22,801 nucleotides of DNA from the IMG/VR virus record IMGVR_UViG_3300030060_005340, positions 13,119-35,919 of that record; one strand, 5' to 3'. Position 1 is the first letter of the stretch, and the number at the start of each line of letters is the position of its first letter. Shown here piece by piece: positions 1 to 18,998 of this stretch. The DNA is from a virus. The position numbers were made by a program, and so were the translations under genes. A model generated the notes under the pieces. The model did not search any database. It was not told the origin of the DNA and saw only the letters and a program-made list of their open reading frames with translations.

Positions 1-3000
1 CCGATACTGAACTTCAATCTCTTGTTGGAAGAAAAATCACAACGACTGACGTAGTGTCAGATACGATTGCCACGGTTGTCTCTGTTCTTGGAACTCCGAC
101 TGGAACCCCTGATGAATCTGGTTTAACCAGTGATAATGAGCAAGTAGTATTTTTCGATTACAATACCTCGGGTGTCTTCTCGGGATCTGTTTTTTCAACC
201 ACCGCCGATGCCCTTCCGGGGATTACGTTTGACGCTGCGTCTCAGTTTGGTGCTCCAGTCACTGGGAACGCATCAACAATTGTTTCTGTTGAAAAAGGTC
301 TCTACTACCTGAGTGGTCACTTTTGTCTGAATGATCAACAAGCACTTCCAGCGTATTCAATTACAGGTGGGTATAGAGATTTTAATAACCCATCAGCAGC
401 AGTTGGGTTCGATGTTTTAAAGACTATTGTTGATTCTGATAGCGACGAAACACTCAACGATCCTGCGTCTGGATTCAATAACTTCAACGCCCCCGGTGCA
501 GATCGTTATTCGATTGTTCCGACTCTTGCACAAAGGACTCTTACTGGAACAGGAGACTCACCATCTCTTGGTATTTCTGGTGGCACACAAGACTATATTG
601 AACTTGTTAGAATTGATGGGGGAACAGTTTCGAGAAGAGTCAAATATGCAGAGTATGGTGACCTTCTCAGGACTCTTGCTCGAAGAACTTTTGATGAATC
701 TGGCAACTACACCGTCAGCCCATTCACTCTCACTGTAGATGACCACAACTCTGTGTACGGGTCAGTTGATAGCACAAAACTAGGTGCGGTGTTGTCCCCC
801 GGCAAAGCATACGTTTCTGGTTACGAGTTTGAAACCGCATCACCTTCTAGGTTTGTTCTCGATAAGGCTAGAGAAGAGTTGGAAATCAGAAATGAAATCC
901 TCGAAACTCCCGAAGGTCTTTTCATTAGATGTGAAGATGGACAATATAACTTACCATCTGATTCTACTTCGATAGACGCGGCAAAACTGGGTGCAAAACT
1001 TTTGATGGTTTCCACTGATGGTCAGGGCAATGATCAAATCATTGGCACTTGTCAATTCAAAACGTTTAGACCAGATCCAACGGCAACCACCACCTTAAGG
1101 TTTCATGTTCAACATATTGAAATGTTAACTAATCCAAACACTGGTAGACCATTCAACTTATTTGGAGTTGGTGCTATCACGTTTGTAGATCTATTAACAA
1201 CCGAAGGTGCTGTCACGGATCCTGCTGGTGTCTCTCTTCCTACTGGCTTTAGAACTGCCACAGATTTATTCAGATTTACAGCACAAGATGGTTCCCCACA
1301 AATCAGAAATCTCCGAGTGGGTAGAAACGTCTTTAAAATCCCCGGAACATTTGCAACAAAAGAAATCAAAGATGACCTTCCAATGCGGTTCAATGCCATT
1401 AAGATGTTCAGCGGAACAACTGATGCAAATGGTGTAGCCACAATCACGCTGCCGTCCGGCACTGGAAACGCAAGTTTCATCGACACGATTTCAGACTTTG
1501 TGGTGATGGCTCGAAAGCAGACATCTGATTCTGCTCTCACCCTTGTTCCTGTCGCAGATGCGGTAATCTCTGTCGCCGAGAGCGTTGTATCAATTGATGT
1601 CTCCGATGCAGCAACAGACGGTGACTTCCTATCACAAGATTTCCTAGTATCACTTCCTGTGAAATATGAGGAAGATCCGAACAACCGTACTATCAGAACT
1701 GCCTCTCTGGTTACAACGACTGTGACTTGCACAGAGAAGGTTGCTGGGTCTGGTGAATTTATTCTTGACGGTAGAAATGGAACTGGAGGACCAGTAACCG
1801 CCCTTTACGATGTCACCAGTATCATCTCGGCTGGCGTTGATGTTACCGAAAAGTTCTCAGTTGATAATGGACAGCGGGTTGACCTTTACGATTTTGCTAG
1901 AGTAAAACTTCGCTCTGGTGAGAGTATTTCTTCAACCGAAATCACAATCACTCTTCGAAAATTTAATTTTGCGTCAAACAATGTTGCCGGTCCTCTGACG
2001 CGAGAGAGTTATGCGGATGTGGTTGAATTGCAGACGTATGATAAGTCTCCTGTATTCCAAGATCCCGACACAGGAGAAAGACTCCGCTTGTATGATGCCA
2101 TTGACTTTAGACCTGTAAGAGATGGTGATCAATTAGATAAAGTCAACTTTGGAAACTTCGCTGCTTCATATGCGTTTGAAATTGCATCTGATCCATCAAG
2201 AGTTTCATATATCACATACCTTCCAAGAATTGACTCTTTGATTCTTGGGGATGATAGAATTCTTAGATTACAAAAAGGTGTTCCCGGTCCAGATCCAAAG
2301 CCACCTACAGTCAACGATACTGATCTTGAATTATATCAACTAATTCTGTCTGCATATACTTCAGATGATACTGAGGTCAAGGCTAAATTCATCAACAGTC
2401 AAAGATTTACGATGCAGGAAATCGGTGATCTTGAACAGTCAACATTTGCCGACCAAAATTTCATCTATCGTTCAGCACTTCAATCACAGGCAGTTTCTGC
2501 TGCTCTTGGATTGTTCCCCGGATCAGAAAGTGTTGACTCGGGCGTGTTTGTTGATGACTTTAGAGGACATGCATTTGCAGATGTCACGAAACCACAACAC
2601 AACTGTTCGATTGATCCAGTTGACACATCTTTGAGACTTCCTTTCCAAACGTTTAATAGAAGCGTGACCTGCGATGCATCTCAAAACGCTCAAGTTTTCG
2701 ATAGCCCATACGGTAGGATTCTTACTGCCGCTGGATCCACTCTTGCATATCTAAAAAACAGCACATCAACAGGGTCAACCCTCGCACCAAACCCGTTTGG
2801 TGTTGTTGACCACCTCGGTTCTTTGAAACTTTCACCCTCCTTCGACAGATATTGGAGTGAAACAAAAGCACCAAAGGTTCTTGTAAACGCTGCTGGGGAA
2901 AACAACGCTTGGGTCAAGGCTCTATCTGTGCCAACAGGAATTTCAGGTAAGCGACTTGGGTTCGGAACTCAATGGAAAGATTGGGAGTCAATTTGGTTTG

Positions 3001-5534
3001 GACGAACTGCACAAGAAGATGTTTCTCTTGATTCACTAAGTGATCCTGACAACAACAGATATAGTGGCAATGTTTCTAGATCCGCATTTGTTCAGAGAAC
3101 ACTGGCAGAAAAAATCACCAAGAAAATTGGTAACAAAATCATTGACCTCTCAGTGATTCCTTACATGGATGCACAAACAATTAAGTTCAGGGCTGAGGGA
3201 TGTAAGCCCGGAGCAACACACTATCTTTACTTTGATGGTGAACTGGTTGGTGCGACGGCAGATGGTTATGTTGCCGGAGCAACCGGTGCATTCGAAGACA
3301 CAGTTATTATTCCTGCTGACACATATCTTACTGGTGAGAAAATTGTTCGCGTATCAGATGGATTGACAACTGGTGACATTGCAACTGCAACATCATCCGC
3401 AGACGCATCTTTCTATGCTCTGGGTAATTACGAAACTATTAGAGATGGCATGGAGAGTGTTCGTCCTCCAATCAAGAGAAGAGATGCCGTGGATACTGAA
3501 AGTTTCCTCGGTGCTGAATACTTAGACTCACTTGGTGGACTTGGAGTTAACGTCTTCAATGCTCTTGATCCGTTAGCACAAACATTTACTGTTGATACAA
3601 GTAAAAATAACGGTTTATGTTTAGACACTGTGCGTCTCTTGTTTACCGAAAAACCAGAGACGTTAGGCTCCGTGATCACTGTTCAGATTAGACCAGTTGA
3701 TGGTAACGGAACTCCCAGACGAAACTTCGTTATTCCCTTTGCTGAAAAAACCCTCTCCCCAACTGATGTAAATGTTGACGGAACGTTGACAGATTTCACC
3801 TTCGACGCTCCAGTATATCTGTCACCGGGAGAGTATGCAATCTGTGTTATCACAAATGACTCGGGATATCATTTAAGAACACGGAGTCAGACCGATGATG
3901 TCAGACTAAACTCTTTGTTTGTTTCAAGAAATGATGGTGAGAGGACTGTCCTTGAGGATACTTACCTTTATCTTGAAATGTATCGACATACGTTCACTGC
4001 AAGTCAAATAACTAAGATCGCATGTGAGTTACACAGTAGTTTTGATACCGACATCACTGGTAATAAGGCGAGTGCTTTCTACTTTGCCAACGCCAGAAAC
4101 GTTCTCTCCTCCGCAGACATTACCGCGAAGATTACAACTGCTGCTGACGACATTACTGGACCTGTTAACACTACACTTAACACTGCTTTCCAGAGTGAAT
4201 GTAGTAACCCAACAGCGATTGAACTTTCGTTCCTTCCAGTCGCGGATGTGAGTCCAATCATTGATCAAGATCAATGTAAAATTTTGAATATTAATCAGTT
4301 TTCGTCTAGTGTCATCGATCAGACTTCTGAGGAAGATGGCAATGATGAAAAATCATCCAGCATTGCAAAATACTACTCCAAGATTGTTAGTCTTGAGACC
4401 CGTGCTGACAACTTAAATGTCAGGATATCTGGTGTATTCCCTGCTAATGCGACTCCAGAAGTTTATGTCAAGACTGGTGGTGGTACTAAAGGACCACTTG
4501 ATGACCAACAATATCAAAAACTGGTTATTCAAGAGGGTATTCAAAACTCTGATTTATCCACACGACAGGTGGTTGTGAAAAACTTTGCTTCACCTACTTC
4601 GGACGATGGTACTTCATCTGAACTTGGTACATTCACCGAGTATCAGATCAAAATTGTCATGCCCAACCGGTTTGAGAATAAGAACAAAGATCTACCAATC
4701 ATCGCAGGATTGAATGCAGTTGCTCTTGGTAAAAAGACTCAGGCAGCATTCTTCAATACCATCACCCCAATCGGCAGTATTTTAACATTCGCAGGTAATG
4801 CGAAGGATAACTGCCCGGAAGGCTTCCTGCCATGTGACGGAAGAATTCTTCCATCGGATGCTGGAGGAGATGATGAGTTTGATTTTACTCCACTGAGAAA
4901 CCTTCTTAACGATGCCGGTAACCCATTCGGTACAGGTTCGGATATTAGACTTCCAGACATGAGAGGTAGAGTCGCACTTGGTGCATCTGTTATGTCTGAC
5001 GCTGTTAATATTCCCACTCTGACTGATGAGCAAAGAAGAAGAGAAGGAAATGACCTCGGGAATGGTCTGGGGAATGCACCGTCAGTATACTTTGCCCGCA
5101 CTTTGGGTGATGCTGGGGGATCTCAACTATTACAGGCACATGATCACCAAAATCCGCGTGTCACTTTGTCTGATAGTGACAGATTTAATGCCAAACTTCG
5201 TGCTGATGTCTTTTCTGCTGAGGGCATTGACGGTTCTGAAAGAACGAAGGAAACAGGCGGCGGTGAAGGTAGTTCAAAAGAAGATAGACCTTTTGTCTTC
5301 TGCGGAGATTCTTTCAATGACGGAAGGGGCGGATTGCTCACTGGTGGTGGTGCTGTTCAAGGACGACTCCCGAAGGCTTCAGGTGAAGATGGGGGAGCGG
5401 GAAATGCAAGCGGTAAACTCGTGAGTAGAAACAAAAATGCAACCGCAGGTGTTAAAGTTGGAGTAGTTGAATATCATGAAGAAGGTGAGTCAATGCCACC
5501 ACACTTAGTTTGTCACTACATAATTAAGTTGTAA
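1..5534 (+). CDS. Giant virion structural protein, DUF4815-like N-terminus and tail-collar C-terminus (5' partial)
   Basis: The frame is open from the first complete codon (3-5), so the GTG at 54 is internal and the true start lies outside the window; 1843 residues are visible. The N-terminal part (roughly to 1900) reads like DUF4815 of marine T4-like phage structural proteins, with AAPGADRY-type and LARRTFDESGNY stretches. Further conserved-looking blocks are YLPRID (2217-2234) and VIPYMDAQTIKF (3153-3188). The C-terminus holds a phage tail-collar domain: CDGRILPSD near 4840, LPDMRGR at 4950-4970, an H-D-H at 5139-5147 and the typical ending MPPHLVCHYIIKL. Tail-collar domains are found in T4 gp12 and other fibres, so this is probably a baseplate-bound fibre or receptor-binding protein. 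Its position ahead of gp13 matches T4 genes 10-12. The tip (5230-5430) is glycine-rich. The structural role is likely; the exact place in the particle is inferred. Confidence 0.85.
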   Translation, partial: DTELQSLVGRKITTTDVVSDTIATVVSVLGTPTGTPDESGLTSDNEQVVFFDYNTSGVFSGSVFSTTADALPGITFDAASQFGAPVTGNASTIVSVEKGLYYLSGHFCLNDQQALPAYSITGGYRDFNNPSAAVGFDVLKTIVDSDSDETLNDPASGFNNFNAPGADRYSIVPTLAQRTLTGTGDSPSLGISGGTQDYIELVRIDGGTVSRRVKYAEYGDLLRTLARRTFDESGNYTVSPFTLTVDDHNSVYGSVDSTKLGAVLSPGKAYVSGYEFETASPSRFVLDKAREELEIRNEILETPEGLFIRCEDGQYNLPSDSTSIDAAKLGAKLLMVSTDGQGNDQIIGTCQFKTFRPDPTATTTLRFHVQHIEMLTNPNTGRPFNLFGVGAITFVDLLTTEGAVTDPAGVSLPTGFRTATDLFRFTAQDGSPQIRNLRVGRNVFKIPGTFATKEIKDDLPMRFNAIKMFSGTTDANGVATITLPSGTGNASFIDTISDFVVMARKQTSDSALTLVPVADAVISVAESVVSIDVSDAATDGDFLSQDFLVSLPVKYEEDPNNRTIRTASLVTTTVTCTEKVAGSGEFILDGRNGTGGPVTALYDVTSIISAGVDVTEKFSVDNGQRVDLYDFARVKLRSGESISSTEITITLRKFNFASNNVAGPLTRESYADVVELQTYDKSPVFQDPDTGERLRLYDAIDFRPVRDGDQLDKVNFGNFAASYAFEIASDPSRVSYITYLPRIDSLILGDDRILRLQKGVPGPDPKPPTVNDTDLELYQLILSAYTSDDTEVKAKFINSQRFTMQEIGDLEQSTFADQNFIYRSALQSQAVSAALGLFPGSESVDSGVFVDDFRGHAFADVTKPQHNCSIDPVDTSLRLPFQTFNRSVTCDASQNAQVFDSPYGRILTAAGSTLAYLKNSTSTGSTLAPNPFGVVDHLGSLKLSPSFDRYWSETKAPKVLVNAAGENNAWVKALSVPTGISGKRLGFGTQWKDWESIWFGRTAQEDVSLDSLSDPDNNRYSGNVSRSAFVQRTLAEKITKKIGNKIIDLSVIPYMDAQTIKFRAEGCKPGATHYLYFDGELVGATADGYVAGATGAFEDTVIIPADTYLTGEKIVRVSDGLTTGDIATATSSADASFYALGNYETIRDGMESVRPPIKRRDAVDTESFLGAEYLDSLGGLGVNVFNALDPLAQTFTVDTSKNNGLCLDTVRLLFTEKPETLGSVITVQIRPVDGNGTPRRNFVIPFAEKTLSPTDVNVDGTLTDFTFDAPVYLSPGEYAICVITNDSGYHLRTRSQTDDVRLNSLFVSRNDGERTVLEDTYLYLEMYRHTFTASQITKIACELHSSFDTDITGNKASAFYFANARNVLSSADITAKITTAADDITGPVNTTLNTAFQSECSNPTAIELSFLPVADVSPIIDQDQCKILNINQFSSSVIDQTSEEDGNDEKSSSIAKYYSKIVSLETRADNLNVRISGVFPANATPEVYVKTGGGTKGPLDDQQYQKLVIQEGIQNSDLSTRQVVVKNFASPTSDDGTSSELGTFTEYQIKIVMPNRFENKNKDLPIIAGLNAVALGKKTQAAFFNTITPIGSILTFAGNAKDNCPEGFLPCDGRILPSDAGGDDEFDFTPLRNLLNDAGNPFGTGSDIRLPDMRGRVALGASVMSDAVNIPTLTDEQRRREGNDLGNGLGNAPSVYFARTLGDAGGSQLLQAHDHQNPRVTLSDSDRFNAKLRADVFSAEGIDGSERTKETGGGEGSSKEDRPFVFCGDSFNDGRGGLLTGGGAVQGRLPKASGEDGGAGNASGKLVSRNKNATAGVKVGVVEYHEEGESMPPHLVCHYIIKL

Positions 5535-5552
5535 TACAAAGAAGGAAGATAG

Positions 5553-7520
5553 ATGGCTGGAAACGCATTCACCAATCTAAACACAATCAGCCTATCGGAT
5601 AACTTCCGGGCTTGGTTCGATAAAACCAACGAAATTGTTGGAGCATTAAATCCTGTTGAGGTGTACGGCATCACAATGGGATCTGGAATCACAGTTTCAG
5701 TTAATGCTGCCGGTATTGCAACTGTTGGTCTGTCTCTGGCTTCGTCGATTCCCGGCAATGCTAGTTTTACAGGTAGTATCACCTTTGCCAACGAAGTACG
5801 ATTCGGACTTGGCAAGACTGTTGACTTCCACGGGGCAACTCTATACGGAAATGTTGTAAGAAGTCTAAATGGTAAGACCGGCGATGTTGTTGTTGGTCTG
5901 ACCGGTATCAATGATCCAACCACAGCCGTTGGTGATTTGGTCATCAAGACGACCGGCAGCACCTTTACTGCCTACTCTTTGTTTAACGGGGACTATGTTC
6001 CGGGTGAAGGTAACAAGTCAATTCGGTTTGGCGGATCTGGCGGAATGCTTCTTGGTGGTTCAACAAGTGGAACTGCCGGTGTTCACAAATTTGCGTCTGC
6101 TTTCTCTGGAACAATCCAAGCCGCACATGACGCATCAACAGGGTCAACAACCGCATACATTCACTTCAAGGATCACGGCTACACTGGAGCAGACAATGCT
6201 GAAAGAGGATCACAGATCTTCTTCGGACACATCACCAACTCTGTTACTGCTCCTGTCGGTCTTGTGGTTAGAGGTGGTGGCTCAACAAATGGAACTGATG
6301 CGTATGATACTGCGGGACCAATGTTGGTCATTGACCAAACAAACAGAAGAATTGGTATTAATGGTGTAACCTCTGCGGGGGGACCATTACATATCATAAC
6401 AGAATCCACTGCGGCTACCTCAGCGAATGATCTTCTTCTTCAAAGCACGACAGGAAAAACAGCGGCAATCAGAACCGCACTTAGTGGATCCACTGGAGAG
6501 TATCTCGCTCTCGAAGGAAATGCGGGGACTACACTAACGCCTCGTTTCCGTGGCTTCCAAGACAAAGATAGGCTTAAGACTGTACTCACTGACTCGATGC
6601 CTGTTGCAGGTGTGGAACTACGACACACAACTCAAGTTTCAACTTTCACCATTCAGGGTCAAGAGTCTAGCGGGGCTTCCCTTTCACCTGTTTTAACTGC
6701 ACGCCAAGATGGCTCTGTGGTTGTTGGTGGTATTTCGCTTGACGATGGTTCGGCAACTGGCGGAAGCACTTTTGGTGACCTCAACCTAGCCACTGGTAAG
6801 ATTAGATTTGGTGGAACTCATGGTGCAACCCTTGCAGAATCTGGTGGCTTGATCACCATGCTGTCAAAGGGTGGGACCGTATCATACAAGAACATCTTTG
6901 CAGACGGACCAAACGGTGGCGGTTCAACATCAATTGTATCAAATGTTTCATTTAGTGGAAACATCACTGATGATATGGTTCTTGACCTCCGACAAGTCGA
7001 ACAAGACGGACAGGAATTACAAGCCGTAGATGAAACAGGATCTGCCATTGAAATAGGAAATGCAAGCAAGGTATTCCTAGAGTTTATCGATTTTGATTCG
7101 AGTGGAAACCAAAGACACGCTATGGGTAATTTTGATATTCAAATCACAATGCCTGCATATGTGTTTGTGAACGATATTCCAGCGGCTGGATCATCCGAAA
7201 CATTCCGCTCCGTAATTGGTGCTTTGGCACTGATCGATGGTGAGAAAACTGATCTTGTCCCCGGTGGTATCGATTTAAACAGTCGATCAGCCAAAGATGC
7301 TGTGCTGTTCAGCCCCTCCGATGGACAAAAATTATTAGGTACGGATGATCTTGCTTCACCTGTGCCACAAAGAATCACGTTTAACTTAAGAGGTAACTGT
7401 ATAACTGGTGTGCGAGTTGCCCTAATCGTATCTAAAACGCACGCAAAGTTAGGTAAACGAAACGGTTCACTTTACCGTGGTGCTGGATCATATAGTGCCA
7501 AGTTTACCAATGTGGAGTAA
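5553..7520 (+). CDS. Virion structural protein, fibre-like (655 aa)
   Basis: ATG preceded by GAAGGA (5541-5546), 18 bases after the previous stop. The N-terminus carries NFRAWFDKTNEIV (residues 17-29), which resembles the short 'W-x-D/R-T-N' opening seen in many marine phage fibre-type proteins. VRSLNGKTGDVV (102-113) is a motif common in phage tail fibre repeats. The rest is rich in Gly, Thr, Ser and Val with alternating polar and hydrophobic residues, as in beta-helical or beta-stranded fibres, and has no transmembrane segment or signal peptide. It lies between the giant fibre gene and the neck genes, where T4 has gene 12 and wac, so it could be an accessory tail or neck fibre. No enzymatic motif is seen. 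A virion role is likely; specific identity is unknown. Confidence 0.7.
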   Translation: MAGNAFTNLNTISLSDNFRAWFDKTNEIVGALNPVEVYGITMGSGITVSVNAAGIATVGLSLASSIPGNASFTGSITFANEVRFGLGKTVDFHGATLYGNVVRSLNGKTGDVVVGLTGINDPTTAVGDLVIKTTGSTFTAYSLFNGDYVPGEGNKSIRFGGSGGMLLGGSTSGTAGVHKFASAFSGTIQAAHDASTGSTTAYIHFKDHGYTGADNAERGSQIFFGHITNSVTAPVGLVVRGGGSTNGTDAYDTAGPMLVIDQTNRRIGINGVTSAGGPLHIITESTAATSANDLLLQSTTGKTAAIRTALSGSTGEYLALEGNAGTTLTPRFRGFQDKDRLKTVLTDSMPVAGVELRHTTQVSTFTIQGQESSGASLSPVLTARQDGSVVVGGISLDDGSATGGSTFGDLNLATGKIRFGGTHGATLAESGGLITMLSKGGTVSYKNIFADGPNGGGSTSIVSNVSFSGNITDDMVLDLRQVEQDGQELQAVDETGSAIEIGNASKVFLEFIDFDSSGNQRHAMGNFDIQITMPAYVFVNDIPAAGSSETFRSVIGALALIDGEKTDLVPGGIDLNSRSAKDAVLFSPSDGQKLLGTDDLASPVPQRITFNLRGNCITGVRVALIVSKTHAKLGKRNGSLYRGAGSYSAKFTNVE

Positions 7521-7522
7521 TT

Positions 7523-8575
7523 ATGACCTTTACGCATCAACCATATTCTGGAGATAAAAATGGTGACCTTTCTCTTCTTGTTTTCAATAACGGGAATTTG
7601 ATAACAATCACCAATACTGCATCAACGACACAAGAGTATGTCTCCGCCGGGGGAAATACTTTTGCCACGTTAGCAGAATTAAATCCGTTTAAAGCCAATG
7701 ATGCATTTCTAAATTACATTAAAGAGTCTGTTGAAACCTCCACTGTGAAAACAACAACCTCTGGTTTGTTTGCCAACAGTGCAACAACTCAAACAGGAAC
7801 CGGTAATGGTAGTGGTGATGTCAAACTACATGGGGATCCGAGAGTAACTCACAGAATTACTCTCGTCGGCGGTTCTACTAGCAGCATTGGTCTGTTGGGT
7901 CCGACTGGTCCAACTCATATGACCCAACTGGTCATTACAGATACCAGTGTCAGCAAAACTTTTGATTGTTACTTCGGTAGATACTTTGATGGATTAACAA
8001 CTGGCACGACTCTTGGTATGGAACTTCTGTTGGTTGGTGTAACGGGAGCAATCACTGGTGGGTTTGCAAGTAGGACTGGACCCTTCCTCATCGAAGAGCC
8101 GGGGGGCAAAACAGGACAATTCTTGAAGTCTAACGTAGTCTCCATTAAAAACTTGAACTCATTCAAGCAATTCATATCTGATCAGGTTGGTGCATCACTT
8201 AATGGTTCTACCTTTGATGGTATTACCTACGGAACTTCACGGACTGGTCATGCGGTCTTCTTCCGAGGAACCACTGATCTTAATGATCTCGCTACTATTA
8301 GTTCACTCGTACAGGCAAACCTCAAAGGTGAGACTGCGGATAGGATTGCATCAGTTCACCTTCCTCTTGTTGGCACTACAGTTTCTGCAATCGCTGGTAT
8401 TACCTTCAACTCACAAACTGGTGGGTGTGCGGCAGCGTCTGAGTTTGATGATGCAGTTGGACAATTGTTTAAGGCTAGACTCACAGCCCAAACTAATGTT
8501 GGTAAGCAATTGAGAGCGATGGAAGATGCCACGACAATCAGAGCGTTGGTCAATGATGCCAATCTCTCCTTCTGA
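7523..8575 (+). CDS. Putative virion structural protein (350 aa), unknown function
   Basis: ATG two bases after the preceding TAA, with GGAG at 7514-7517 inside the end of the upstream gene, so translation is probably coupled. The protein is rich in Thr, Gly, Ser and Val and has no signal peptide, membrane segment or recognised motif. Residues from about 205 onward look more globular (NSFKQFISDQVGASLNG and a helical C-terminus LFKARLTAQTNVGKQLRAMED). It is the last gene before gp13, the slot held by wac (fibritin) in T4, but it lacks the long heptad coiled coil of fibritin. A tail or neck decoration role is inferred from position only. Confidence 0.6.
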   Translation: MTFTHQPYSGDKNGDLSLLVFNNGNLITITNTASTTQEYVSAGGNTFATLAELNPFKANDAFLNYIKESVETSTVKTTTSGLFANSATTQTGTGNGSGDVKLHGDPRVTHRITLVGGSTSSIGLLGPTGPTHMTQLVITDTSVSKTFDCYFGRYFDGLTTGTTLGMELLLVGVTGAITGGFASRTGPFLIEEPGGKTGQFLKSNVVSIKNLNSFKQFISDQVGASLNGSTFDGITYGTSRTGHAVFFRGTTDLNDLATISSLVQANLKGETADRIASVHLPLVGTTVSAIAGITFNSQTGGCAAASEFDDAVGQLFKARLTAQTNVGKQLRAMEDATTIRALVNDANLSF

Positions 8576-8628
8576 TGCCGCGTAATCTAAGACTGAGCCA
8601 ACGGTAAAGTCAAGCGGCGTAAGAATGT

Positions 8629-8661
8629 TCGCTCCAATACATATAAAAGGACAAGGAGCGA
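8629..8661 (+). promoter_or_regulatory. Stem-loop overlapping the gp13 ribosome binding site
   Basis: TCGCTCC (8629-8635) is perfectly complementary to GGAGCGA (8655-8661), with a 19-base A-rich loop. The right arm covers GGAG of the AAGGAG Shine-Dalgarno sequence (8653-8658) that serves the gp13 ATG at 8667. If it folds, it would hide the ribosome binding site. It lies in a 91-base gap (8576-8666), the longest non-coding stretch between genes apart from the one after gp23. There is no T-tract, so it is not a terminator. The pairing is seen; the regulatory role is inferred. Confidence 0.35.
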
Positions 8662-8666
8662 CTTAG

Positions 8667-9461
8667 ATGGCGAAACCCACATCAAGAGAAGAACTAAAAC
8701 AGTACGCTCTGAGGAAACTGGGAGCACCGGTTATCGAGGTCAATGTTGATGATGCTCAACTTGAAGACTCGCTAGATGACGCACTTCAGATTTTTTCAGA
8801 GTACCATTTCGATGGTGTCCAGAAGGTTTTCTACAAGTATGAGATGACCACCACTGATCTTAGTAATGGCTTTATTGATGTAAACAATGTTGGTGCTACT
8901 GGACCCAACGATACAGTGCAACCTGCTGCCGGATCTAAAATCGTTTCGGTATACAAAGTATTTAAGTTTGATGAAACTGGAGCGGGAACTAATTTCTTCA
9001 GTCTGAATTATCAGATGGCACTAAATGATGCCTATGGAATTCGTGCTCCCGGCAACATGTCTGACTATGCAATAACTCAAAGTTATTTGTCAATGTTGTC
9101 TGATATGCTTTCCCCAGAAAAAGCAATTCGATTTAGCAGAGTTACAGATAGGCTTTACATTGACGCAGATATTAAAGATTTGCTTGATGCTGGAAACTTC
9201 TTAGGAATCGAAGCATATGCTGAACTTGACCCAGACACATACACTGGCATCTACAATGACATCCTTCTCAAGAAGTACGTTGTTGCATCTTTTAGAAAAC
9301 AGTGGGGCATGAACCTCATCAAGTATCAAGGCATCAATCTTCCGGGCGGTGTGCAGTTTGATGGTCAAGCGTTGATCAGTCAAGGGAATGAGGAAATGGA
9401 GCGAATTGAGGAAACGCTTCAAGACAAGTATGAACTTCCTCCTGACTTCTGGGTGGGATAA
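8667..9461 (+). CDS. 13: Neck protein gp13 (head completion)
   Basis: The protein is 264 aa (T4 gp13 is 309). Its opening, MAKPTSREELKQYALRKLG followed by APVIEVNVDD, matches the conserved start of T4-like gp13, and the aromatic-rich middle (FSEYHFDGVQKVFYKYEM) fits too. In T4, gp13 and gp14 form the neck that closes the filled head through the portal and offers the docking surface for the tail. The ATG at 8667 follows AAGGAG (8653-8658) at good spacing. The gene ends in TAATG, where TAA stops gp13 and the ATG opens gp14. It is the first gene of the neck-packaging-tail block. Identity rests on the N-terminus and on perfect synteny with T4. Confidence 0.88.
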   Translation: MAKPTSREELKQYALRKLGAPVIEVNVDDAQLEDSLDDALQIFSEYHFDGVQKVFYKYEMTTTDLSNGFIDVNNVGATGPNDTVQPAAGSKIVSVYKVFKFDETGAGTNFFSLNYQMALNDAYGIRAPGNMSDYAITQSYLSMLSDMLSPEKAIRFSRVTDRLYIDADIKDLLDAGNFLGIEAYAELDPDTYTGIYNDILLKKYVVASFRKQWGMNLIKYQGINLPGGVQFDGQALISQGNEEMERIEETLQDKYELPPDFWVG

Positions 9462-10339
9462 TGGCAACAAATCAATACTTCAATAAGTTTGCCGCTACCA
9501 ATGAGCAAACACTGGTGCAAGATCTAGTCGATGAAACAATTCGTATTCACGGCGTAGATATGGTCTACATTCCTCGCACCAGACAAAACGAAGATGAAGT
9601 ATTGGGAGATGCTAACCTCCCCCTCTTTGAAGAGGCAAGAGAAGTTGAGATGTATGTTGAAAATTATGATGGTTTTGACGGCGAGGGTGAAGTCATGACA
9701 CAGTTTGGTCTTGAGATTAAAGATGAACTTACCACGACAATCTCAAGTCGAAGATTCAAGACTTTATACGCCGACAAAAACTATGCGTCACCCAGAGAGG
9801 GAGACCTTATCTTTTTCCCTCTCAACAACTCATTATTTGAAATCAACTTTGTCGAACGTGAAAAGAATTTCTTTAGTTTTGGTAAGATATTCACATTCCA
9901 GATGAAGTGTAGTTTCTTCAAATATACCGGAGAAGACTTCACTACAGGATTCGATGCCATCGATGGTGTGACTGGCTCCGTATTCGACCAACTGGTGTCC
10001 GTAGGAGCCACCAACGGGACCGGAGAGTTCAGAGATGGGGAACGGGGTCACCTGTATACAAACGCAGCAGGGAGCGTTACAGGGGCTACAATCGACATCA
10101 TCGAATGGAACACTCTTACGGATACAGCGACCATTCGCGTCCTGCCCGGAGGCACTATTGGTGGTGCTACACTGATGATCGGGGAGACCTCTGGTGCGTC
10201 CTTTGGTATTGCAACAATCGGTGCAACCTTAGACTTCTTCGTCAAGGATGGACTTGAGGACAACACCGAGATCGATCTTGAGGCAGCAACATTCCTTGAC
10301 TTTACGGAAAATGATCCGTTCTCGGAGGGTAACTTTTAA
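9461..10339 (+). CDS. 14: Neck protein gp14 (head completion)
   Basis: The protein is 292 aa (T4 gp14 is 256). The conserved gp14 features are QTLVQDLVDETIRIHGVDM (16-34), VYIPRT (35-40), the ETIRIHG-D-x-x-YIPR pattern, and SSRRF (95-99). PREGDLIFFP (111-120) and the following FEINFVE segment are also typical. gp14 partners gp13 in the neck. The start overlaps the gp13 stop by one base, and the end overlaps gp15 the same way. Residues about 171-259 form a Gly/Thr-rich stretch with repeated 'G-x-x-x-G-x-T/S-G-A' pieces (IGETSGASFGIATIG) that looks like an inserted beta module and accounts for the greater length. Confidence 0.9.
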   Translation: MATNQYFNKFAATNEQTLVQDLVDETIRIHGVDMVYIPRTRQNEDEVLGDANLPLFEEAREVEMYVENYDGFDGEGEVMTQFGLEIKDELTTTISSRRFKTLYADKNYASPREGDLIFFPLNNSLFEINFVEREKNFFSFGKIFTFQMKCSFFKYTGEDFTTGFDAIDGVTGSVFDQLVSVGATNGTGEFRDGERGHLYTNAAGSVTGATIDIIEWNTLTDTATIRVLPGGTIGGATLMIGETSGASFGIATIGATLDFFVKDGLEDNTEIDLEAATFLDFTENDPFSEGNF

Positions 10340-11196
10340 TGTTTAGCACCTTCTACAACGAGACGATCAGAAAAACTGTTATCGGGTTTGCTAGTCTTTT
10401 TGATGATGTTCACATCCAGCGGTTTGATTCTGCTGGCACACTGAAGAAAAAGATTCTTGTTCCTATTTCGTATTCCCCAAAAGAGAAGTTTTTAAGAATG
10501 CTCCGAGAGTATCCTCTGTTGAAAGGGGATGATGGAGATGTTGATACTCACATTGGACAGATTCTCCCGCGTATGGGATTTAATATCAGCAGTATCGCTT
10601 ACGATGGAACAAGAAAACGAAATACAATTTTACGTCGATTTGTAACGAGCGAACCAGACGAGGATACTGGATTGGTTAAACAAACACAGTCACAGTTCAC
10701 CGAGGTTCCGTACAACATTAGTTTCAATCTGTCTGTTGCAACACGGACGACCGATGATGCTCTTCAGATTATTGAACAGATTCTTCCATACTTCACTCCA
10801 GAATTTACACTTAGTATCAACTATACCTCTGGGTTTAATACAAAGATTGACGTTCCAATTGTACTGAATGATGTTGCTCCCGAGTTTGAGTTTGAGGGGG
10901 ATACCTCCACACAACGAAATGTAATCTTTAATCTTGGGTTTACTGCTTTATCTTATGTCTTCTCACCGATCAAAACAAGCAAGATCATTCGTACCACAGA
11001 CGTTACTTCACTACTCAGCGACTTCACCGCGTTTGGTGGTATCAGTGGACCGACAGGTGCAGTCGCCAGAAGCATTTCCTCTATCACTGGACCATCCGGT
11101 GCGAGCAGTATGCCACCGAATGCATCTGTCACCACTGATAACTTTATCTTTGGTTCTATTACTAGTGGCTTGAGTGTGACCGGAGGCACGATGTGA
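10339..11196 (+). CDS. 15: Tail terminator / proximal sheath stabiliser gp15
   Basis: The protein is 285 aa (T4 gp15 is 272). MFSTFYNETIRKTVIGFASL is a typical gp15 start (T4 begins MFGYFYNSSFRR). VPISYSPKEKFLRML (37-51) matches the T4 VPITYASKEHF region, and IIEQILPYFTPEFTLSINY corresponds to T4 IVEQILPYFQPHF. In T4, gp15 forms a hexamer capping the tail tube and sheath and connecting the tail to the neck. The ATG is in a TAATG overlap with gp14 and is served by GGAGGG (10324-10329). The C-terminal 50 residues are Gly/Ser/Thr-rich (GPTGAVARS, TGPSGASS) and less conserved. Confidence 0.92.
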   Translation: MFSTFYNETIRKTVIGFASLFDDVHIQRFDSAGTLKKKILVPISYSPKEKFLRMLREYPLLKGDDGDVDTHIGQILPRMGFNISSIAYDGTRKRNTILRRFVTSEPDEDTGLVKQTQSQFTEVPYNISFNLSVATRTTDDALQIIEQILPYFTPEFTLSINYTSGFNTKIDVPIVLNDVAPEFEFEGDTSTQRNVIFNLGFTALSYVFSPIKTSKIIRTTDVTSLLSDFTAFGGISGPTGAVARSISSITGPSGASSMPPNASVTTDNFIFGSITSGLSVTGGTM

Positions 11197-11663
11197 TGAA
11201 AGAAGACCATCCTTTAGAGAAGGCATTAAATATTGAGCCGGTTGACATTCCCAAAGACACCACTCCAGTGGTTCGGAAACCTGTTGAAATAGACTTGTCT
11301 AATTTCTCTGACAAAAAGGAACTCCATCAAAGACAAGATTACTCTGAGATTAGAGAAAACTTAAAAGATTTGATTGAGAGTGGTAAGGTTGCCCTTGACG
11401 GTATAATCAAGGTTGCCTCTGAGAGTGACAGTCCACGGGCATTCGAGGTTGTTTCTCAATTGATGAAAACATCAGTTGAAGCAAACAAAGAACTTCTCGA
11501 TGTCCATAAGCAAATGAAGGAACTCGAAAAAGAGTCCGGTGCAAAGAATGTTACAAACAATGCGTTCTTCGTTGGATCCACGAAAGAACTTCAGGAGTTG
11601 GTGCAAAAACAACTCCCAGCGAATAAGGTGAAAAAGGTAAAGAACAATGACGAAGAGGCATGA
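11196..11663 (+). CDS. 16: Small terminase subunit gp16
   Basis: About 155 aa (T4 gp16 is 164). The central helical segment with SDSPRAFEVVSQLMKTSVEA and NKELLDVHKQMKELE matches T4 gp16 (NADSPRHMEVFATLM, NREILKLHKDMKD). The end FFVGSTKELQELV matches T4 VFMGSPTELMDEI. The subunit recognises phage DNA and stimulates gp17 during packaging. Two starts are possible: GTG at 11193 and ATG at 11196. I chose ATG because GGAGG (11182-11186) sits nine bases ahead of it. The gene overlaps the gp15 stop and runs 17 bases into gp17. The C-terminus is lysine-rich. Confidence 0.88.
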   Translation: MKEDHPLEKALNIEPVDIPKDTTPVVRKPVEIDLSNFSDKKELHQRQDYSEIRENLKDLIESGKVALDGIIKVASESDSPRAFEVVSQLMKTSVEANKELLDVHKQMKELEKESGAKNVTNNAFFVGSTKELQELVQKQLPANKVKKVKNNDEEA

Positions 11664-13290
11664 TGCCGATTCATATCTTGGAAACATCAATCTAAAAGCG
11701 GCAGGCGTAGAAACAGAATTTACAAAAGAACAGATTCAAGAATACGCAAAGTGTGCTTCGGATCCGATGTACTTCATCGAGAACTACATCAAAATTGTAT
11801 CTCTCGATGATGGATTGGTTCCCTTCAAAACATATGAATATCAAAGGAACATGATCGAAACGATTCACAGGGATCGCTTCGTTATTGCAAAACTACCGAG
11901 ACAGTCTGGCAAGTCTACTACTGTTGTTGCATATCTTTTACACTATGTTTTATTCAATCCTTCAAAGAATGTTGCAATTCTTGCAAACAAGCAGGTGACT
12001 GCACGCGAACTTCTGGGTCGTCTAAAGTTGGCATACGAGCATCTTCCCAAGTGGATTCAGCAGGGCATAATTGAATGGAATAAAGGCTCTATTCATCTCG
12101 AAAATGGCTCGAAGATTTTGGCATCATCAACGTCATCCTCCGCCGTTCGAGGTGGGTCTTTCAATATGCTGTTTCTTGATGAATTTGCATTCGTTCCAGA
12201 AAATGTTGCGGATGAGTTTTTCAGTTCTGTGTACCCCACGATCTCGGCGGGACAGGAAACTAAAGTTTTGATCATCAGCACGCCCAAAGGTTTGAACATG
12301 TATTACAAACTGTGGCGAGATGCTGAGGAAAAAAGAAACTCTTACACCCCCATTGAGGTCCACTGGTCTGAAGTGCCGGGAAGAGATGAAAAGTGGAAAA
12401 AAGAGACAATCAGAAATACGTCCGAGGAGCAGTTTCGTGCGGAGTTTGAATGTGAGTTCTTGGGGTCTCTGAATACTTTGATCACACCGTCAAAGTTAAA
12501 AACCTTGACCTACGAAAGACCGATTGCACAGTCTGAAGAGGGACTAAAGGTTTATGAAAATCCAATTCCCGGTGCAGAATACTTCCTCGGCTTAGATGTT
12601 TCACGCGGAAAAGAATTGGACTATCACGCATTTTCAATCATTCGATATGATCAGATGCCATACAAAGTAGTTGCAACATTTAAGAACAATGACATGCAAC
12701 CCTTCCTGTTGCCAACCCTTATCTACAACTTTGCCATGAGATACAACGAGGCAAATGTGCTAGTCGAAATCAACGATCTGGGACAAGAGGTGGTTGACCT
12801 ATTGTGGAACGAACTTGAATATGAAAACATTATTACCACGACTGTCCGTGGGCGAAAAGGGCAGGTAATGGATGCTGGATTCTCAAGACACGAACGACAA
12901 TATGGCGTGCGTATGAGTGCGAAGGTGAAACGAGTCGGCTGTGCCATGCTCAAGGAGATGGTAGAGCAAGACAAACTCATCATACCCGACTTTGATATCA
13001 TCAATGAACTTGCGTCCTTTGTCTCAAAACGTGGAGCATTCGAAGCAGAGGTGGGTCACCACGATGACTTGGTAATTAGTGTGTTGCTTTTTGCATGGGC
13101 ATCCAACCAAGAATATTTCAAAGATTTGACAGACATAAATATTCGTGAGGAACTCCTTAAAGAGAAGATCGCCAAAATGGAAGAAAATATTATGCCTTTT
13201 GGGTTTGTAGAAGATGGAGTTTCTGAGGACGTATTCGTAGACGATCAAGGGGATCGATGGTCTTTGAAGAATAATGAAGATATCCTCTAA
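11647..13290 (+). CDS. 17: Large terminase subunit gp17 (packaging ATPase and nuclease)
   Basis: The protein is 547 aa (T4 gp17 is 610). The N-terminal ATPase has a Walker A loop PRQSGKST (84-91, Lys89), a Walker B strand MLFLDE (174-179, Asp178 and catalytic Glu179) and the coupling motif IISTPKG (209-215). The C-terminal RNase H-fold nuclease shows the three expected acids: Asp317 in GLDVSRG, Glu374 in VLVEIND and Asp473/474 in HHDDLVIS. It cuts concatemeric DNA and pumps it through the gp20 portal. The start ATG lies within the end of gp16 (17-base overlap), with a weak AAGGT-type site ahead, so coupling to gp16 translation is likely. All catalytic positions are intact and there is no intron or intein. 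Confidence 0.97.
   Translation: MTKRHDADSYLGNINLKAAGVETEFTKEQIQEYAKCASDPMYFIENYIKIVSLDDGLVPFKTYEYQRNMIETIHRDRFVIAKLPRQSGKSTTVVAYLLHYVLFNPSKNVAILANKQVTARELLGRLKLAYEHLPKWIQQGIIEWNKGSIHLENGSKILASSTSSSAVRGGSFNMLFLDEFAFVPENVADEFFSSVYPTISAGQETKVLIISTPKGLNMYYKLWRDAEEKRNSYTPIEVHWSEVPGRDEKWKKETIRNTSEEQFRAEFECEFLGSLNTLITPSKLKTLTYERPIAQSEEGLKVYENPIPGAEYFLGLDVSRGKELDYHAFSIIRYDQMPYKVVATFKNNDMQPFLLPTLIYNFAMRYNEANVLVEINDLGQEVVDLLWNELEYENIITTTVRGRKGQVMDAGFSRHERQYGVRMSAKVKRVGCAMLKEMVEQDKLIIPDFDIINELASFVSKRGAFEAEVGHHDDLVISVLLFAWASNQEYFKDLTDINIREELLKEKIAKMEENIMPFGFVEDGVSEDVFVDDQGDRWSLKNNEDIL
13134..13141 (+). promoter_or_regulatory. Weak candidate T4-type late promoter element (CATAAATA)
   Basis: CATAAATA matches the T4 late -10 element TATAAATA in seven of eight positions. 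It lies inside the gp17 coding region, about 190 bases ahead of the gp18 start. A transcript from here would lead into the sheath and tube genes. A seven-base match is expected about once by chance in a window of this size, so support is weak. Confidence 0.2.
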
Positions 13291-13329
13291 ACCGCGTTAT
13301 CAATAGATAAGAAGCAACAGGAGAAAACC

Positions 13330-15840
13330 ATGACATTTCAAGTCAGCCCCGGCGTTCAAGTAAAAGAAATCGACCTTACATCAATTATTCCCTCTGTTTC
13401 TACCACCAGAGCGGGGTTTGCGGGTGTATTTAATCAGGGTCCAGTAGGATCAAGAACTCTCATCAGTAGCGTAAACCAACTTCGCTCCGTCTTCGGTGAT
13501 CCGACAGACGCTAATGCGGTGGACTGGTTCACGGCTGCCAACTTCCTTGCGTATACAAACAATCTTCAGGTTATTCGCGTTGTAGGCACGGGTTCAGTCA
13601 ATGCAAATGTTGCTGGACGATCTACTGATTCACTCATCAAAACTGTTTCTGACTATGATGCACAATTCGGCGTAATTGATAGCGATGGTTATGGTGTTTC
13701 AACTGGTACGACCTTCGGCACATTCGCCGCACGGGGTCCGGGTGGTGAAGTCAATCAGGGTGGAAATGCTATTCAGGTTTCTGTTGCAGATAGAACCACT
13801 CTGGGTGTTCGACTCATTGGAGCAACCGGAGCCGGAGTTGGTGGGGGAACAGACTCCGTGTCCGCCACTGCTGCAATCGGATCCGATAGCACTTCCCAAC
13901 TTACTGATCAAAACCCAATTGATACTGACAAGACCATGTTCTACATTGTAGAAAAAGGTGATATTGTTACCTCAGGACTTCCGTATGGTCTTACTGGTAA
14001 TAACACTGATGGTAAAAATGAAATTGCAAACGTGGGTGATACTGCCGGTGACAACCTTCGAATCAAGGGTCTTCCTGCTGAACCACTAAGAACAATCACA
14101 GGTATTACCCCCGGTTATGTTGCAGTAGTAAAAACCGGTGTGGACCTCAAGCCTAAAACAGGTGCAGTCTCCATAGACCTTCATGTCCCCTCAGGTACTA
14201 AGTACCTTGCCCAAGATGGTAACACTGGTGGATATGTCGTTATTCACGGTGGAACTGGTGGTGTGTCTCACGACATGATCGCTCGCGTTACTACAACATC
14301 TACAAGCACAGTTACAATGACTGTTGGAGTCACTGCTGCTACTCTCGGTATCGAGGGTGGTATCAGAGTGAACCCCGGAGACTTCGTTCAGTTTGTTGGA
14401 GAAATTGAAGTCGGAAGCACCGCAGCCGGACAGGGTGGTCTCACCGCCGCCTCTGTTGACTGGAGATATCGATCCAACTTCTCAAGAGACCTGCCAGCGA
14501 CCAGCATTGATGCACAAAACCGAGGTGCTACAAACGACCTCATCCACATCGCTGTCATGGACGAATTTGGGATCGGCACTGGTAATACATTCGAGGTTCT
14601 TGAAACCTTCGATTCTGTCTCGAAGGCAAGTAACGTACTCGATTCGTTTGGCAAGAACATCTTCATGCAGCAGCGAGTCCGGGGTGATTCCTCTCGCGTG
14701 TTCTTGACTGGGTTTGCTGATGTCGTGGGTGGAACTATGGGTGGTGTGACTGCATTTGGTGGTGGCGGTGGAAACACCGTTGGACCCCTTGCCAAAGCGG
14801 GTGTAACTCACGGGTCTCTCGCTCAAGCCGGTCGCGTGTTCAACACTCTAATTAAACCATCTACTGTATCACTTACTGGTGGTACTCTTGGTGCAGCGGT
14901 AACAAACAAGATCACAGACGGATACGATGCATTCGAAGATCCTGAGACCGTTGATGTTAATATTCTTGTTGCAGGTGATCTCAAGGGAGCACAAGCCAAG
15001 TCACTCGTCACCATTCTAGATAAGCGTAGAGATTGCCTCGGCTTCTTCTCTCCGCCTAGAGATGCAGTTCTTGACTCAAACGGTGCTGCACCCAAGTCAT
15101 CCATTAAAGCAACTGCTAACACGGTTGCCTACCGCAAGGGTACAAACGCCAACGAATCCGGTGGTGATCAAGACTTTACCTCTGAAAACCTAAACAGCGA
15201 TACGTCATTCGCAGTCATGGACAGTGGGTGGAAGTTAACCTTTGATCGCTACAACGATAAGTTCCGTTATATGCCACTTAATGCTGATACCGCAGGTGTC
15301 ACTGTTCGAACCGATGTAATCGCCGAACCGTGGTTCTCACCCGCTGGTTTCAACCGTGGTCAGATCTTGGGTGCAGTCGCACTCGCATACAGCCCAAATC
15401 AGGCAGAGCGAGATGATCTGTATACCAACAACATCAACCCTGTCGTGGCATTCCCCGGACAAGGAACAGTGTTGTTTGGTGATAAGACCATGCAACAGAG
15501 ACCGTCTGCATTCGACAGAATCAATGTTCGTCGTTTGTTCATCATCCTTGAGAAGGCAATTTCTACTGCTGCCAAGTTCCAACTCTTCGAAATCAATGAT
15601 GCGTTCACTAGAGCACAGTTCAAGAGCATCGTTGACCCATTCTTGAGAGATGTTCAGGCAAGAAGAGGAATTGTTGACTTCAAGGTGATCTGTGATACCA
15701 GCAATAACCCATCTTCGGTTGTTGATCGTAATGAGTTTGTGGCGAGTATCTTTATCAAACCATCTCGTTCGATTAACTTCATCACTCTCAACTTCGTTGC
15801 AACGGGTAGTGGAGTGAACTTCCAAGAAATTGGTGCGTAA
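13330..15840 (+). CDS. 18: Tail sheath protein gp18
   Basis: The protein is 836 aa, against 659 in T4. The N-terminus (FQVSPGVQVKEIDLTSIIP) and the C-terminus (VIAEPWFSPAGFNRGQI, NPVVAFPGQGTVLFGDKT, INVRRLFI, SINFITLNFVATGSGVNF) are canonical gp18. The protein polymerises as hexameric rings around the gp19 tube and contracts on infection. The start is served by AGGAG (13319-13323) six bases ahead of ATG. The extra length is mainly in residues about 110-400, a Gly/Thr-rich region that should correspond to the surface-exposed protruding domains of the sheath. A 39-base gap separates it from gp17. The next gene is the tube protein, as in T4. Confidence 0.96.
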   Translation: MTFQVSPGVQVKEIDLTSIIPSVSTTRAGFAGVFNQGPVGSRTLISSVNQLRSVFGDPTDANAVDWFTAANFLAYTNNLQVIRVVGTGSVNANVAGRSTDSLIKTVSDYDAQFGVIDSDGYGVSTGTTFGTFAARGPGGEVNQGGNAIQVSVADRTTLGVRLIGATGAGVGGGTDSVSATAAIGSDSTSQLTDQNPIDTDKTMFYIVEKGDIVTSGLPYGLTGNNTDGKNEIANVGDTAGDNLRIKGLPAEPLRTITGITPGYVAVVKTGVDLKPKTGAVSIDLHVPSGTKYLAQDGNTGGYVVIHGGTGGVSHDMIARVTTTSTSTVTMTVGVTAATLGIEGGIRVNPGDFVQFVGEIEVGSTAAGQGGLTAASVDWRYRSNFSRDLPATSIDAQNRGATNDLIHIAVMDEFGIGTGNTFEVLETFDSVSKASNVLDSFGKNIFMQQRVRGDSSRVFLTGFADVVGGTMGGVTAFGGGGGNTVGPLAKAGVTHGSLAQAGRVFNTLIKPSTVSLTGGTLGAAVTNKITDGYDAFEDPETVDVNILVAGDLKGAQAKSLVTILDKRRDCLGFFSPPRDAVLDSNGAAPKSSIKATANTVAYRKGTNANESGGDQDFTSENLNSDTSFAVMDSGWKLTFDRYNDKFRYMPLNADTAGVTVRTDVIAEPWFSPAGFNRGQILGAVALAYSPNQAERDDLYTNNINPVVAFPGQGTVLFGDKTMQQRPSAFDRINVRRLFIILEKAISTAAKFQLFEINDAFTRAQFKSIVDPFLRDVQARRGIVDFKVICDTSNNPSSVVDRNEFVASIFIKPSRSINFITLNFVATGSGVNFQEIGA

Positions 15841-15867
15841 CGCATACATAACTAAGGAGCATAACAA

Positions 15868-16419
15868 ATGAACATCGACAAGTTCAAAAACGCAATCGGG
15901 GGCGGGGTAAGACCCTCTCTCTTCAGAGTAAAAGGTAACATTGGTTCAACAACCAGTCCCGATGTTCTTAGTTTCTTGGTAACCGCAGCACAACTTCCTG
16001 CATCGACGCTTGGGGAAATTGCTGTTAACTATCGTGGTCGCCAGATCAAACTGCCCGGATCCAGAACCTTTGAACCGTGGACACTAACTGTTCTAAACGA
16101 CGAGGGGATGTTCCTTCGTTCAAGGTTTGAGAGATGGATTGAAGATCTTAACGGGGCAGAGTCCAATATTGCACAGAGACCTATTACACTAACCAACGCA
16201 GTTGACTTCCCAACATGGTCAATTGATCAGTTAAACAGAAACGGAAACCCAATCAAGTCATATGAATTGCTTTACTGTTTCCCGACATCAGTTAGTGCGA
16301 TGGATCTTTCAGCAGATGCAGATGGTTTGTCTGACTTCCAAGTGACACTCAACTACACATACTTCCTCACCAGTGGCGTGAACGGCATTCCTGTCGGAGC
16401 CGCACCTATTCGGGAGTAA
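15868..16419 (+). CDS. 19: Tail tube protein gp19
   Basis: The protein is 183 aa (T4 gp19 is 163). It carries the tube-protein pattern: PSLFRVKGNI, then LSFLVTAAQLPASTLGEI, then YRGRQIKLPGSRTFEPW and TLTVLNDEG. The corresponding T4 parts are NLFQVEI, KATALPAG, NRKINVAGDRTFDDWTVTVMNDE. It stacks in hexameric rings forming the channel inside the sheath through which DNA leaves. The ATG follows AAGGAG (15854-15859). A 27-base gap separates it from gp18, fitting joint expression of sheath and tube. Confidence 0.95.
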   Translation: MNIDKFKNAIGGGVRPSLFRVKGNIGSTTSPDVLSFLVTAAQLPASTLGEIAVNYRGRQIKLPGSRTFEPWTLTVLNDEGMFLRSRFERWIEDLNGAESNIAQRPITLTNAVDFPTWSIDQLNRNGNPIKSYELLYCFPTSVSAMDLSADADGLSDFQVTLNYTYFLTSGVNGIPVGAAPIRE

Positions 16420-16435
16420 TTTTTAGGGGAATACA

Positions 16436-18621: not shown

Positions 18622-18998
18622 GTGCCAACACAGTTATTGACGCAATCGTAAATAAACAATACAACGCCGCAGAAGAGGCACTTACTGATCTCCTAAAGGG
18701 TAAGGTTTCTAACGCTCTCACCGGGCGTAAAGAAGAGGTCGCCAAACTCTTCGGGACAAAACTCGGTGAGGAAAAGACCGATACTGAGTATGAAAAGTTC
18801 TTCGCAAAAGCAATGAAAAAGTTTGGCATCTCGTCCCCGTCAGAACTAAAAGATGAGGACAAGAAGAAAGAGTTCTTTGATTATGTTGACAAGAACTACA
18901 AGTCTGACGTTGAGAAGGCGACTGGAAAAGACGATCCCGACGCAGATGACGACGAAAAGGTCGCACGCGAAAAGGCTGATAAGAAGGATAAAAAGTAA
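18618..18998 (+). CDS. Putative prohead core protein (126 aa), gp67/gp68-like
   Basis: Small, very charged protein. The start (TVIDAIVNKQYNAAEEALTD, then LLKGKVSNAL and RKEEVAKLFG) resembles the short helical N-terminal module of prohead core proteins in T4-like phages. The part SPSELKDEDKKKEFFDYVDK is a second helical segment. The last 30 residues are almost only Lys, Asp, Glu and Ala, as in T4 core proteins. LGEE (49-52) fits the gp21 cleavage consensus L-x-E. ATGA overlap with the preceding gene and TAATG overlap with gp21. In T4, genes 67 and 68 lie here and shape the scaffold core. The assignment rests on position, composition and the N-terminal pattern. Confidence 0.6.
   Translation: MSANTVIDAIVNKQYNAAEEALTDLLKGKVSNALTGRKEEVAKLFGTKLGEEKTDTEYEKFFAKAMKKFGISSPSELKDEDKKKEFFDYVDKNYKSDVEKATGKDDPDADDDEKVAREKADKKDKK

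Follow-up and report, generated by a model that had tools for sequence, protein, structure and literature searches.

The stretch of DNA analysed here (22,801 nucleotides, hereafter the window) corresponds to positions 13119-35919 of a parent viral record of 35,919 bases, G000, and opens on the plus strand with a single reading frame of 1843 aa at 3-5534. Mapping to the parent record showed these to be the 3' 1843 codons of a gene of 1944 codons that starts with ATG, spans positions 12818-18652 of the record and begins 301 bp upstream of the window. The 101 codons at its 5' end, which lie outside the window, include ten N's (record positions 13109-13118, immediately 5' of the window) whose flanks both carry the 8-mer ccgatact. 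Because of this shared 8-mer we took the N's for a scaffold gap, at which the record does not fix the exact residues. An earlier note, made from the letters of the window, had described an open frame of at least 1843 residues at this place, which is confirmed, and had called the product very large. The latter description was not upheld, as the chains of this family measured in named phages range from 1151 aa (A511) to 2702 aa (S-CAM22) and 1944 aa is an ordinary size for the family.

Named after their PHROG matches, the genes of the record begin with a tail tube cap, a wedge subunit, a tail protein, a hub/lysozyme and two unmatched genes. Four wedge subunits follow, then the gene described here, a 655 aa gene and a 350 aa gene; after these come neck (connector) proteins, a sheath stabiliser, terminase, sheath, tube and portal, and finally two short genes, a protease, a scaffold and the major head protein. 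We take this order to be T4-like. The three genes preceding the one described here match the PHROG "baseplate wedge subunit" families 219, 17744 and 438 and the neck/connector genes come after it, so that it stands among the wedge genes within the tail module.

Pfam detected DUF4815 in the window chain with an E-value of 4.2e-32 (111.6 bits against a cut-off of 30) in two stretches, residues 89-298 (267-896, plus strand) and residues 733-955 (2199-2867, plus strand; record positions 15317-15985), the latter corresponding to profile positions 371-567, and a third stretch was seen upstream of the N gap when the whole record was searched. The chain also matches PHROG 358, of unknown function, at 4e-165. 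When a profile of 14 relatives was compared with the PDB at E-values up to 10, one distinct sequence was found, the DUF4815 protein ORF65 of phi812 (E 1.9e-71, 15 entries), which Foldseek matched as well (E 8e-12), and gp106 of phage A511 matched the VrlC core profile in a search of four sequences (E 5e-46). By this homology to a solved baseplate protein and to A511 gp106, the body of the chain belongs to the VrlC / A511 gp106 / phi812 ORF65 family, the arm proteins of double-layered baseplates, whose members are often labelled VrlC or structural protein in the records of named phages. According to the available text of two papers, A511 gp106 is a baseplate arm protein whose trimers are the pyramids of the double-layered baseplate, and these pyramids turn toward the cell once first binding has occurred (PMC9863714, PMC11406892). 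A pelagiphage paper, in its available part, sees VrlC instead as a substitute of T4 gp7 (PMC7029224).

Two further domains complete the body. In a structure model, residues 1186-1330 (3558-3992, plus strand) adopt a predicted lectin-like beta-sandwich that matches phi812 ORF65 and, among others, the lectin-like domain of Cwp84 (Z 11.1-11.2 for the Cwp84 entries). This fold is akin to the lectin-like folds of Deep-Blue gp176 and Vp4 gp120, VrlC proteins of Bacillus phages whose C-terminal lectin-like/CBM folds are predicted to touch the cell; the accessible portion of that report mentions no collar in them and gives a separate "chaperone" of 63-64 aa (PMC11406892). The last VrlC domain, delimited by alignment, domain profiles and the structure model, occupies residues 1452-1577 (4356-4733, plus strand).

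Behind this domain the chain continues into a fused C-terminal module (residues 1580-1843; 4740-5531, plus strand) made of a collar and a putative receptor-binding tip. Pfam Collar (PF07484) matched residues 1591-1657 (4773-4973, plus strand) with an E-value of 2.8e-5 and a score of 24.4 bits, barely over the cut-off of 24. We accepted this marginal score because relatives also match Collar with higher scores, namely 37.2, 42.1 and 37.3 bits in L006, L007 and L009 and 48.1-56.7 bits in L029-L032; altogether, Collar was matched by 8 of the 14 members of alignment A2 (window included) and by all four further loci. The profile search of the whole protein thus bears out the earlier note's proposal that DUF4815 and a gp12-type collar stand in one chain, and the same combination was found in 11 of the 12 contigs with fused chains. 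In the remaining one, the 5'-truncated L032, Pfam finds Collar only, and the VrlC core profile does match.

Within the module, an HxH motif (H1713, H1715; 5139-5147, plus strand), recognised in the alignment of fused chains, is invariant in 11 of 11 aligned chains, and the terminal PP..Y.IK residues, part of an E-x-M-P-P...YIIK motif in the window chain, are kept in the same 11. Identity comparison marks the segment from HxH to this terminal motif as a hypervariable tip (5139-5486, plus strand). T4 gp12, which is not known to have a DUF4815 part, has the collar, HxH and terminal strand in common with this module and, along with the A-1(L) fibre, scores highest among the known folds matched to the tip. 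In T4, as far as the consulted part of the source goes, gp12 is by contrast a separate protein in an apparently non-covalent gp10-gp11-gp12 unit, and its His445 and His447 bind zinc, with the metal on the threefold axis (PMC3004832). By comparison with these residues, H1713 and H1715 are putative metal ligands.

The structural matches to the tip are to be read with care. Beyond the phi812 ORF65 part, a model of residues 1175-1843 (mean pLDDT 65.6, pTM 0.39) matched the A-1(L) fibre with Z 6.6 and T4 gp12 with Z 6.1, and the tip folded alone, a poor model (mean pLDDT 49.3), had its best matches in the A-1(L) fibre (6.7), T4 gp12 (6.5), a T4 baseplate chain (6.0) and the T4 long-fibre tip (5.5), where both models are of low confidence and Z values of 6-7 against gp12 or the A-1(L) fibre fall in the range that the structure-search tool calls common. 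Compared with short-tail-fibre chains of the PDB, the C-terminal profile reached an E-value of 7.4e-6 over 43 positions with 9cuy and of only 0.056 with T4 gp12. Searches with tblastn for a donor among named phages, using the tip of the window chain or that of L007, returned no relative, although such searches could miss diverged tips, and the C-terminal part found among named phages two records of collar/minor tail proteins and no relative. Sixty-three loci of the genome collection that match the C-terminal alignment were set aside; they look like ordinary collar proteins, because the listed match begins at residue 215 or later of 504 in 62 of them and at residue 199 in L126. The best 50 of 410 matches in BFVD were VrlC/DUF4815 proteins with, lower down, two collar-type proteins, and no fused chain was recognisable among them.

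The site of fusion is short and sharp in an alignment of 14 chains. Phi812 ORF65 (PDB 9euf, 9eui, 9euj), a protein of 1152 aa, is matched by the model up to its last residue, 1152 (residues 1186-1577 of the model, Z 16.1-17.4), and ends where the collar starts in the fused chain; aligned sequence and modelled structure put the junction at the same point. To locate it in the gathered relatives, every plus-strand frame of at least 150 aa was scanned with short profiles for three regions, namely the core, the last VrlC domain and the collar module. The count took in chains in which the last domain was recognised and the frame was not truncated at the 3' end, and omitted repeat copies of L004, L016-L018 and L025-L028. 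All 83 unfused chains (three from named phages, both L098 copies and a second piece, of 513 aa, from L022 included) stopped 0-4 aa past the last VrlC domain, and all 12 fused ones continued for 194-266 aa. These counts do not represent natural prevalence, as the unfused set is chiefly the top 80 among 597 or more relatives found with mainly unfused chains as query. Besides that of the window, the fused contigs comprise 11 others (the set measures 11.8-74 kb and probably consists of fragments), each with a different IMG dataset number and with the same junction; three are 51% identical to the window chain, four 41%, and four 33-37% in the core. The close homologues found thus carry the collar in the same chain. 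The earlier note had also considered that all close homologues might share a fusion already described as a known fibre. The first half of this holds for the close homologues found; as to the second, our literature searches found no description of a VrlC arm with a built-in gp12-type tip, which is also absent in 14 of 14 named-phage chains tested. The parts themselves are known.

Among these 14 named-phage chains, eight end 1-3 residues past the last domain, four (L176, L177, L178 and L180; three of the records Ackermannviridae) extend 21-33 aa past a partial match to it, and in the two Herelleviridae chains (A511 and EF7H) the last-domain profile is unmatched. Because of the Ackermannviridae-like extensions and the unmatched A511 and EF7H chains, the clean cut at the last domain holds for the nearer relatives only. 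The collar profile matched none of the 14, and Pfam Collar none of eight of them; nor did any of the 1153 named-phage records that match the chain do so over 80% of its length in one place. In the Kyanoviridae HTVC008M, S-CAM22 and Melnitz-3, VrlC likewise contains DUF4815 and lies behind baseplate wedge genes, but it ends 1 aa past the common domain, and no Collar was detected in the protein nor, at an E-value of 0.001, anywhere in the three records.

A tree of the core region alone, made by a quick method from 101 rows (83 unfused chains, 7 unlabelled rows and 11 non-redundant fused chains), placed the fused chains on one side of a branch with an SH-aLRT of 100, and a careful tree of 14 rows agreed (100/100). 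L008, a separate contig counted among the 12 fused ones, was omitted from the larger tree as a near-copy of L009, and so were the repeat copies of L004, L016-L018 and L025-L028. In this sample the fused chains are one branch of uncultured T4-like phages, and a clade on the assumption that the root lies outside it. In the unfused relatives L020, L021, L036, L038, L039, L050, L051 and L062, the next gene of at least 150 aa matches the collar profile; checked with Pfam Collar, that of L020 was over the cut-off and that of L021 under it. Such separate collar genes nearby could have been the source of the collar domain, though no donor is proven. In L098, two DUF4815/VrlC genes stand in tandem (548-7972 and 7986-13727; 2475 and 1914 aa), which are sisters in the core tree, and neither matches the collar profile.

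A second difference between fused and unfused chains lies directly downstream. Twelve named phages have a gene of 62-83 aa directly behind VrlC, and four of these small genes, compared with PHROG, fell into family 473 or 4322, named "virion structural protein". In the window, the site which this small coiled-coil gene occupies in most unfused relatives is a gap of 18 bp (5535-5552, plus strand) where none was found. In the fused contigs the next gene follows after 11-23 bp; in most unfused ones, the next gene of 150 aa or longer lies about 180-270 bp away. A profile of the small genes of 12 isolates matched all 62 small frames (at least 45 aa) right behind unfused IMG/VR chains at E-values of 1e-3 or less, where the second-round profile contains the frames that it finds, so that the first round and a scan of whole contigs are the independent evidence. 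Seventeen unfused chains have no frame by that rule; six-frame translation revealed the small gene in 15 of them, the exceptions being L023 and L043. When whole contigs were scanned, the profile of 12 isolates detected the small gene in 10 of 12 unfused contigs, the misses being again L023 and L043, versus 0 of 12 fused ones. The small gene (phrog_473/4322), usual directly behind VrlC though not necessarily a defining feature of the family, was found in none of the 12 fused contigs.

L023 and L043 are unfused sisters in which about 240 bp separate VrlC from the next gene of 150 aa or longer; in L023 this stretch holds no similar frame. Because these two also are without the small gene, its loss does not require the tip; and because the fused set is one branch, the fusion and the absence of the small gene may be a single coincidence.

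The likely counterpart of the small protein in A511 is gp107 (73 aa), which adjoins gp106 and has an RDxxSxA motif and a coiled coil in common with the small protein, a weak match (E 2.5e-5) obtained in a four-sequence search of coiled-coil-rich proteins; Enterococcus phage phi EF7H has a similar gene of 68 aa one gene further on. A511 gp106 thus resembles the fused chain in its homologous core and differs from it in having no collar match and a separate gp107 behind it, of which no counterpart was found in the fused branch. The C-terminal half of the small protein is similar to coiled coils, including engineered trimeric ones (best E 0.004), and the matches listed for the small-protein profile and for A511 gp107 (phmmer) were mostly coiled coils or helical proteins, with no phage baseplate protein among them. 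In the accessible parts of the literature, gp107 is suggested as a possible cell-contact domain (PMC9863714, PMC11406892), and the small proteins of A511 and of Bacillus phages are called (putative) chaperones (PMC11406892).

Comparison of core and tip identities gave a pattern that fits the exchange of tips between lineages. L006 and L007 are 84% identical in the core and 19% identical in the tip behind HxH, which is chance level (shuffled mean 21%). Conversely, L007 and L030, which sit in opposite halves of the fused branch, are 37% identical in the core and 69% in the tip (shuffled maximum 25%), the one clear long-range pair out of 55. Values for the whole C-terminal part of L006, a segment cut at a spurious hit (1196 aa), were excluded from this comparison. 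As far as identity values can suggest it, receptor-binding tips that are exchanged would be expected to show such a pattern, and a mere folding cap would not.

Downstream of the 18-bp gap, and common to the fused branch, lies a gene for a 655 aa protein that is probably a second fibre (5553-7520, plus strand). Its homologues share the N-terminal part and reach 1428-1510 aa with collagen-like repeats in L030-L032; that of L029 is truncated. Behind the unfused VrlC of L037 there is a weak relative (E 3.5e-7), and a search of named phages found no relative. This probable neighbouring fibre could be the main adhesin instead of the fused tip.

Taken together, we think it probable that the protein is a VrlC arm whose receptor tip, of the gp12 type, is covalently attached and exchangeable and has taken over the job of the small protein. 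Collar and receptor-binding tip would be joined covalently to the C-terminus of a VrlC baseplate-wedge arm protein, of which three chains, by analogy with A511, would form one arm or "pyramid". Such an arm would be held away from the cell and, again as in A511, swing toward it after the first fibre binds. At the end of each arm, a trimeric tip with bound metal would grip the surface and help to lock the baseplate before sheath contraction, so that receptor contact would be coupled covalently to the baseplate arm. In this scheme the trimer, the metal on the threefold axis (T4 gp12) and the turning of the arm at attachment (A511) are borrowed from the named families. The fused tip would probably do the job of the small coiled-coil protein that occupies the position of A511 gp107, and would be swapped between phages as a host-range cassette. 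A direct link from baseplate to receptor, which the earlier note had raised as something a single chain could provide, is the best reading of the locus, in so far as the named families are a guide.

A competing explanation, which we regard as unlikely though the strongest of the alternatives, is that the collar module serves chiefly to cap the long arm and fold it into a trimer in place of the small protein, with the lectin-like domains or the neighbouring fibre contacting the receptor. It would agree with the coiled-coil-like C-terminal half of the small protein and its engineered trimeric matches, with the name of chaperone given to the A511 and Bacillus-phage proteins in the parts of the source at hand (PMC11406892), with the failure to find the small gene in contigs that have the collar and with the lectin-like domains kept upstream. 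A cap would be expected to be conserved, but no other part is less conserved than the tip behind HxH, where the pattern of exchange is also seen; moreover, the unfused L023 and L043 have neither collar nor small gene.

Two further readings are each very improbable. The earlier note compared the chain with T4 genes 10, 11 and 12, and in its full form this would make it a merged gp10-gp11-gp12 with DUF4815 as the counterpart of gp10/gp11. The gp12-type collar stands, the C-terminal domain of T4 gp10 is among the structural matches of the tip (2fkk, Z 2.6), and gp10, gp11 and gp12 are stated in the available text to have a motif in common (PMC3004832). In the Pfam, PHROG and PDB profile searches no gp10 or gp11 domain was listed for the body, 2fkk being a match of the tip only. 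The body does match A511 gp106 and phi812 ORF65, and T4 gp10 was dropped as its origin; the unfused relatives also point to a collar joined onto a protein that was complete without it. Alternatively, the chain might be cut at the junction after synthesis and the tip work as a separate subunit, an idea for which the short, sharp junction is the one point in favour. That the fusion is an artefact of assembly or annotation, as the scaffold gap inside the gene might suggest, is refuted for practical purposes, since some 1,580 codons separate the gap from the junction downstream of it and the same junction occurs in 11 other contigs with different IMG dataset numbers.

If the preferred reading of a VrlC arm with a covalent tip is extended to the relatives, the arm of double-layered baseplates might in general end in an exchangeable contact element, which would be a separate gp107-type protein in most phages (Herelle-, Ackermann- and Kyanoviridae) and would have been replaced once, here, by a covalent gp12-type tip, then swapped as a host-range cassette. 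We advance this only tentatively, and hold it to be rather less likely than the reading of the single protein; if true, the small "virion structural protein" products would show, throughout these phages, which end of the arm contacts the host. For the contact of the second layer with the cell in double-layered baseplates, the text available only suggests gp107, and a branch in which the small gene was not found and a recognisable receptor-type tip stands on the same protein offers a testable answer. It would also place a putative adhesin, distributed like a host-range cassette, on a conserved baseplate protein that is annotated as of "unknown function" (PHROG 358) or as the "virulence-associated" VrlC.

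Two other genes of the window deserve mention. The 350 aa gene behind the probable second fibre (7523-8575) is common to L006-L009 and L013-L015, with a best PHROG match at an E-value of 0.17; it was not found in L030-L032, and L029 is cut off before its site. Further downstream, the tail sheath gene (13330-15840) encodes 836 aa, of which residues 1-833 are spanned by positions 20-471 of the 496 in the PHROG 23 profile, a span that implies an insert of approximately 380 aa.
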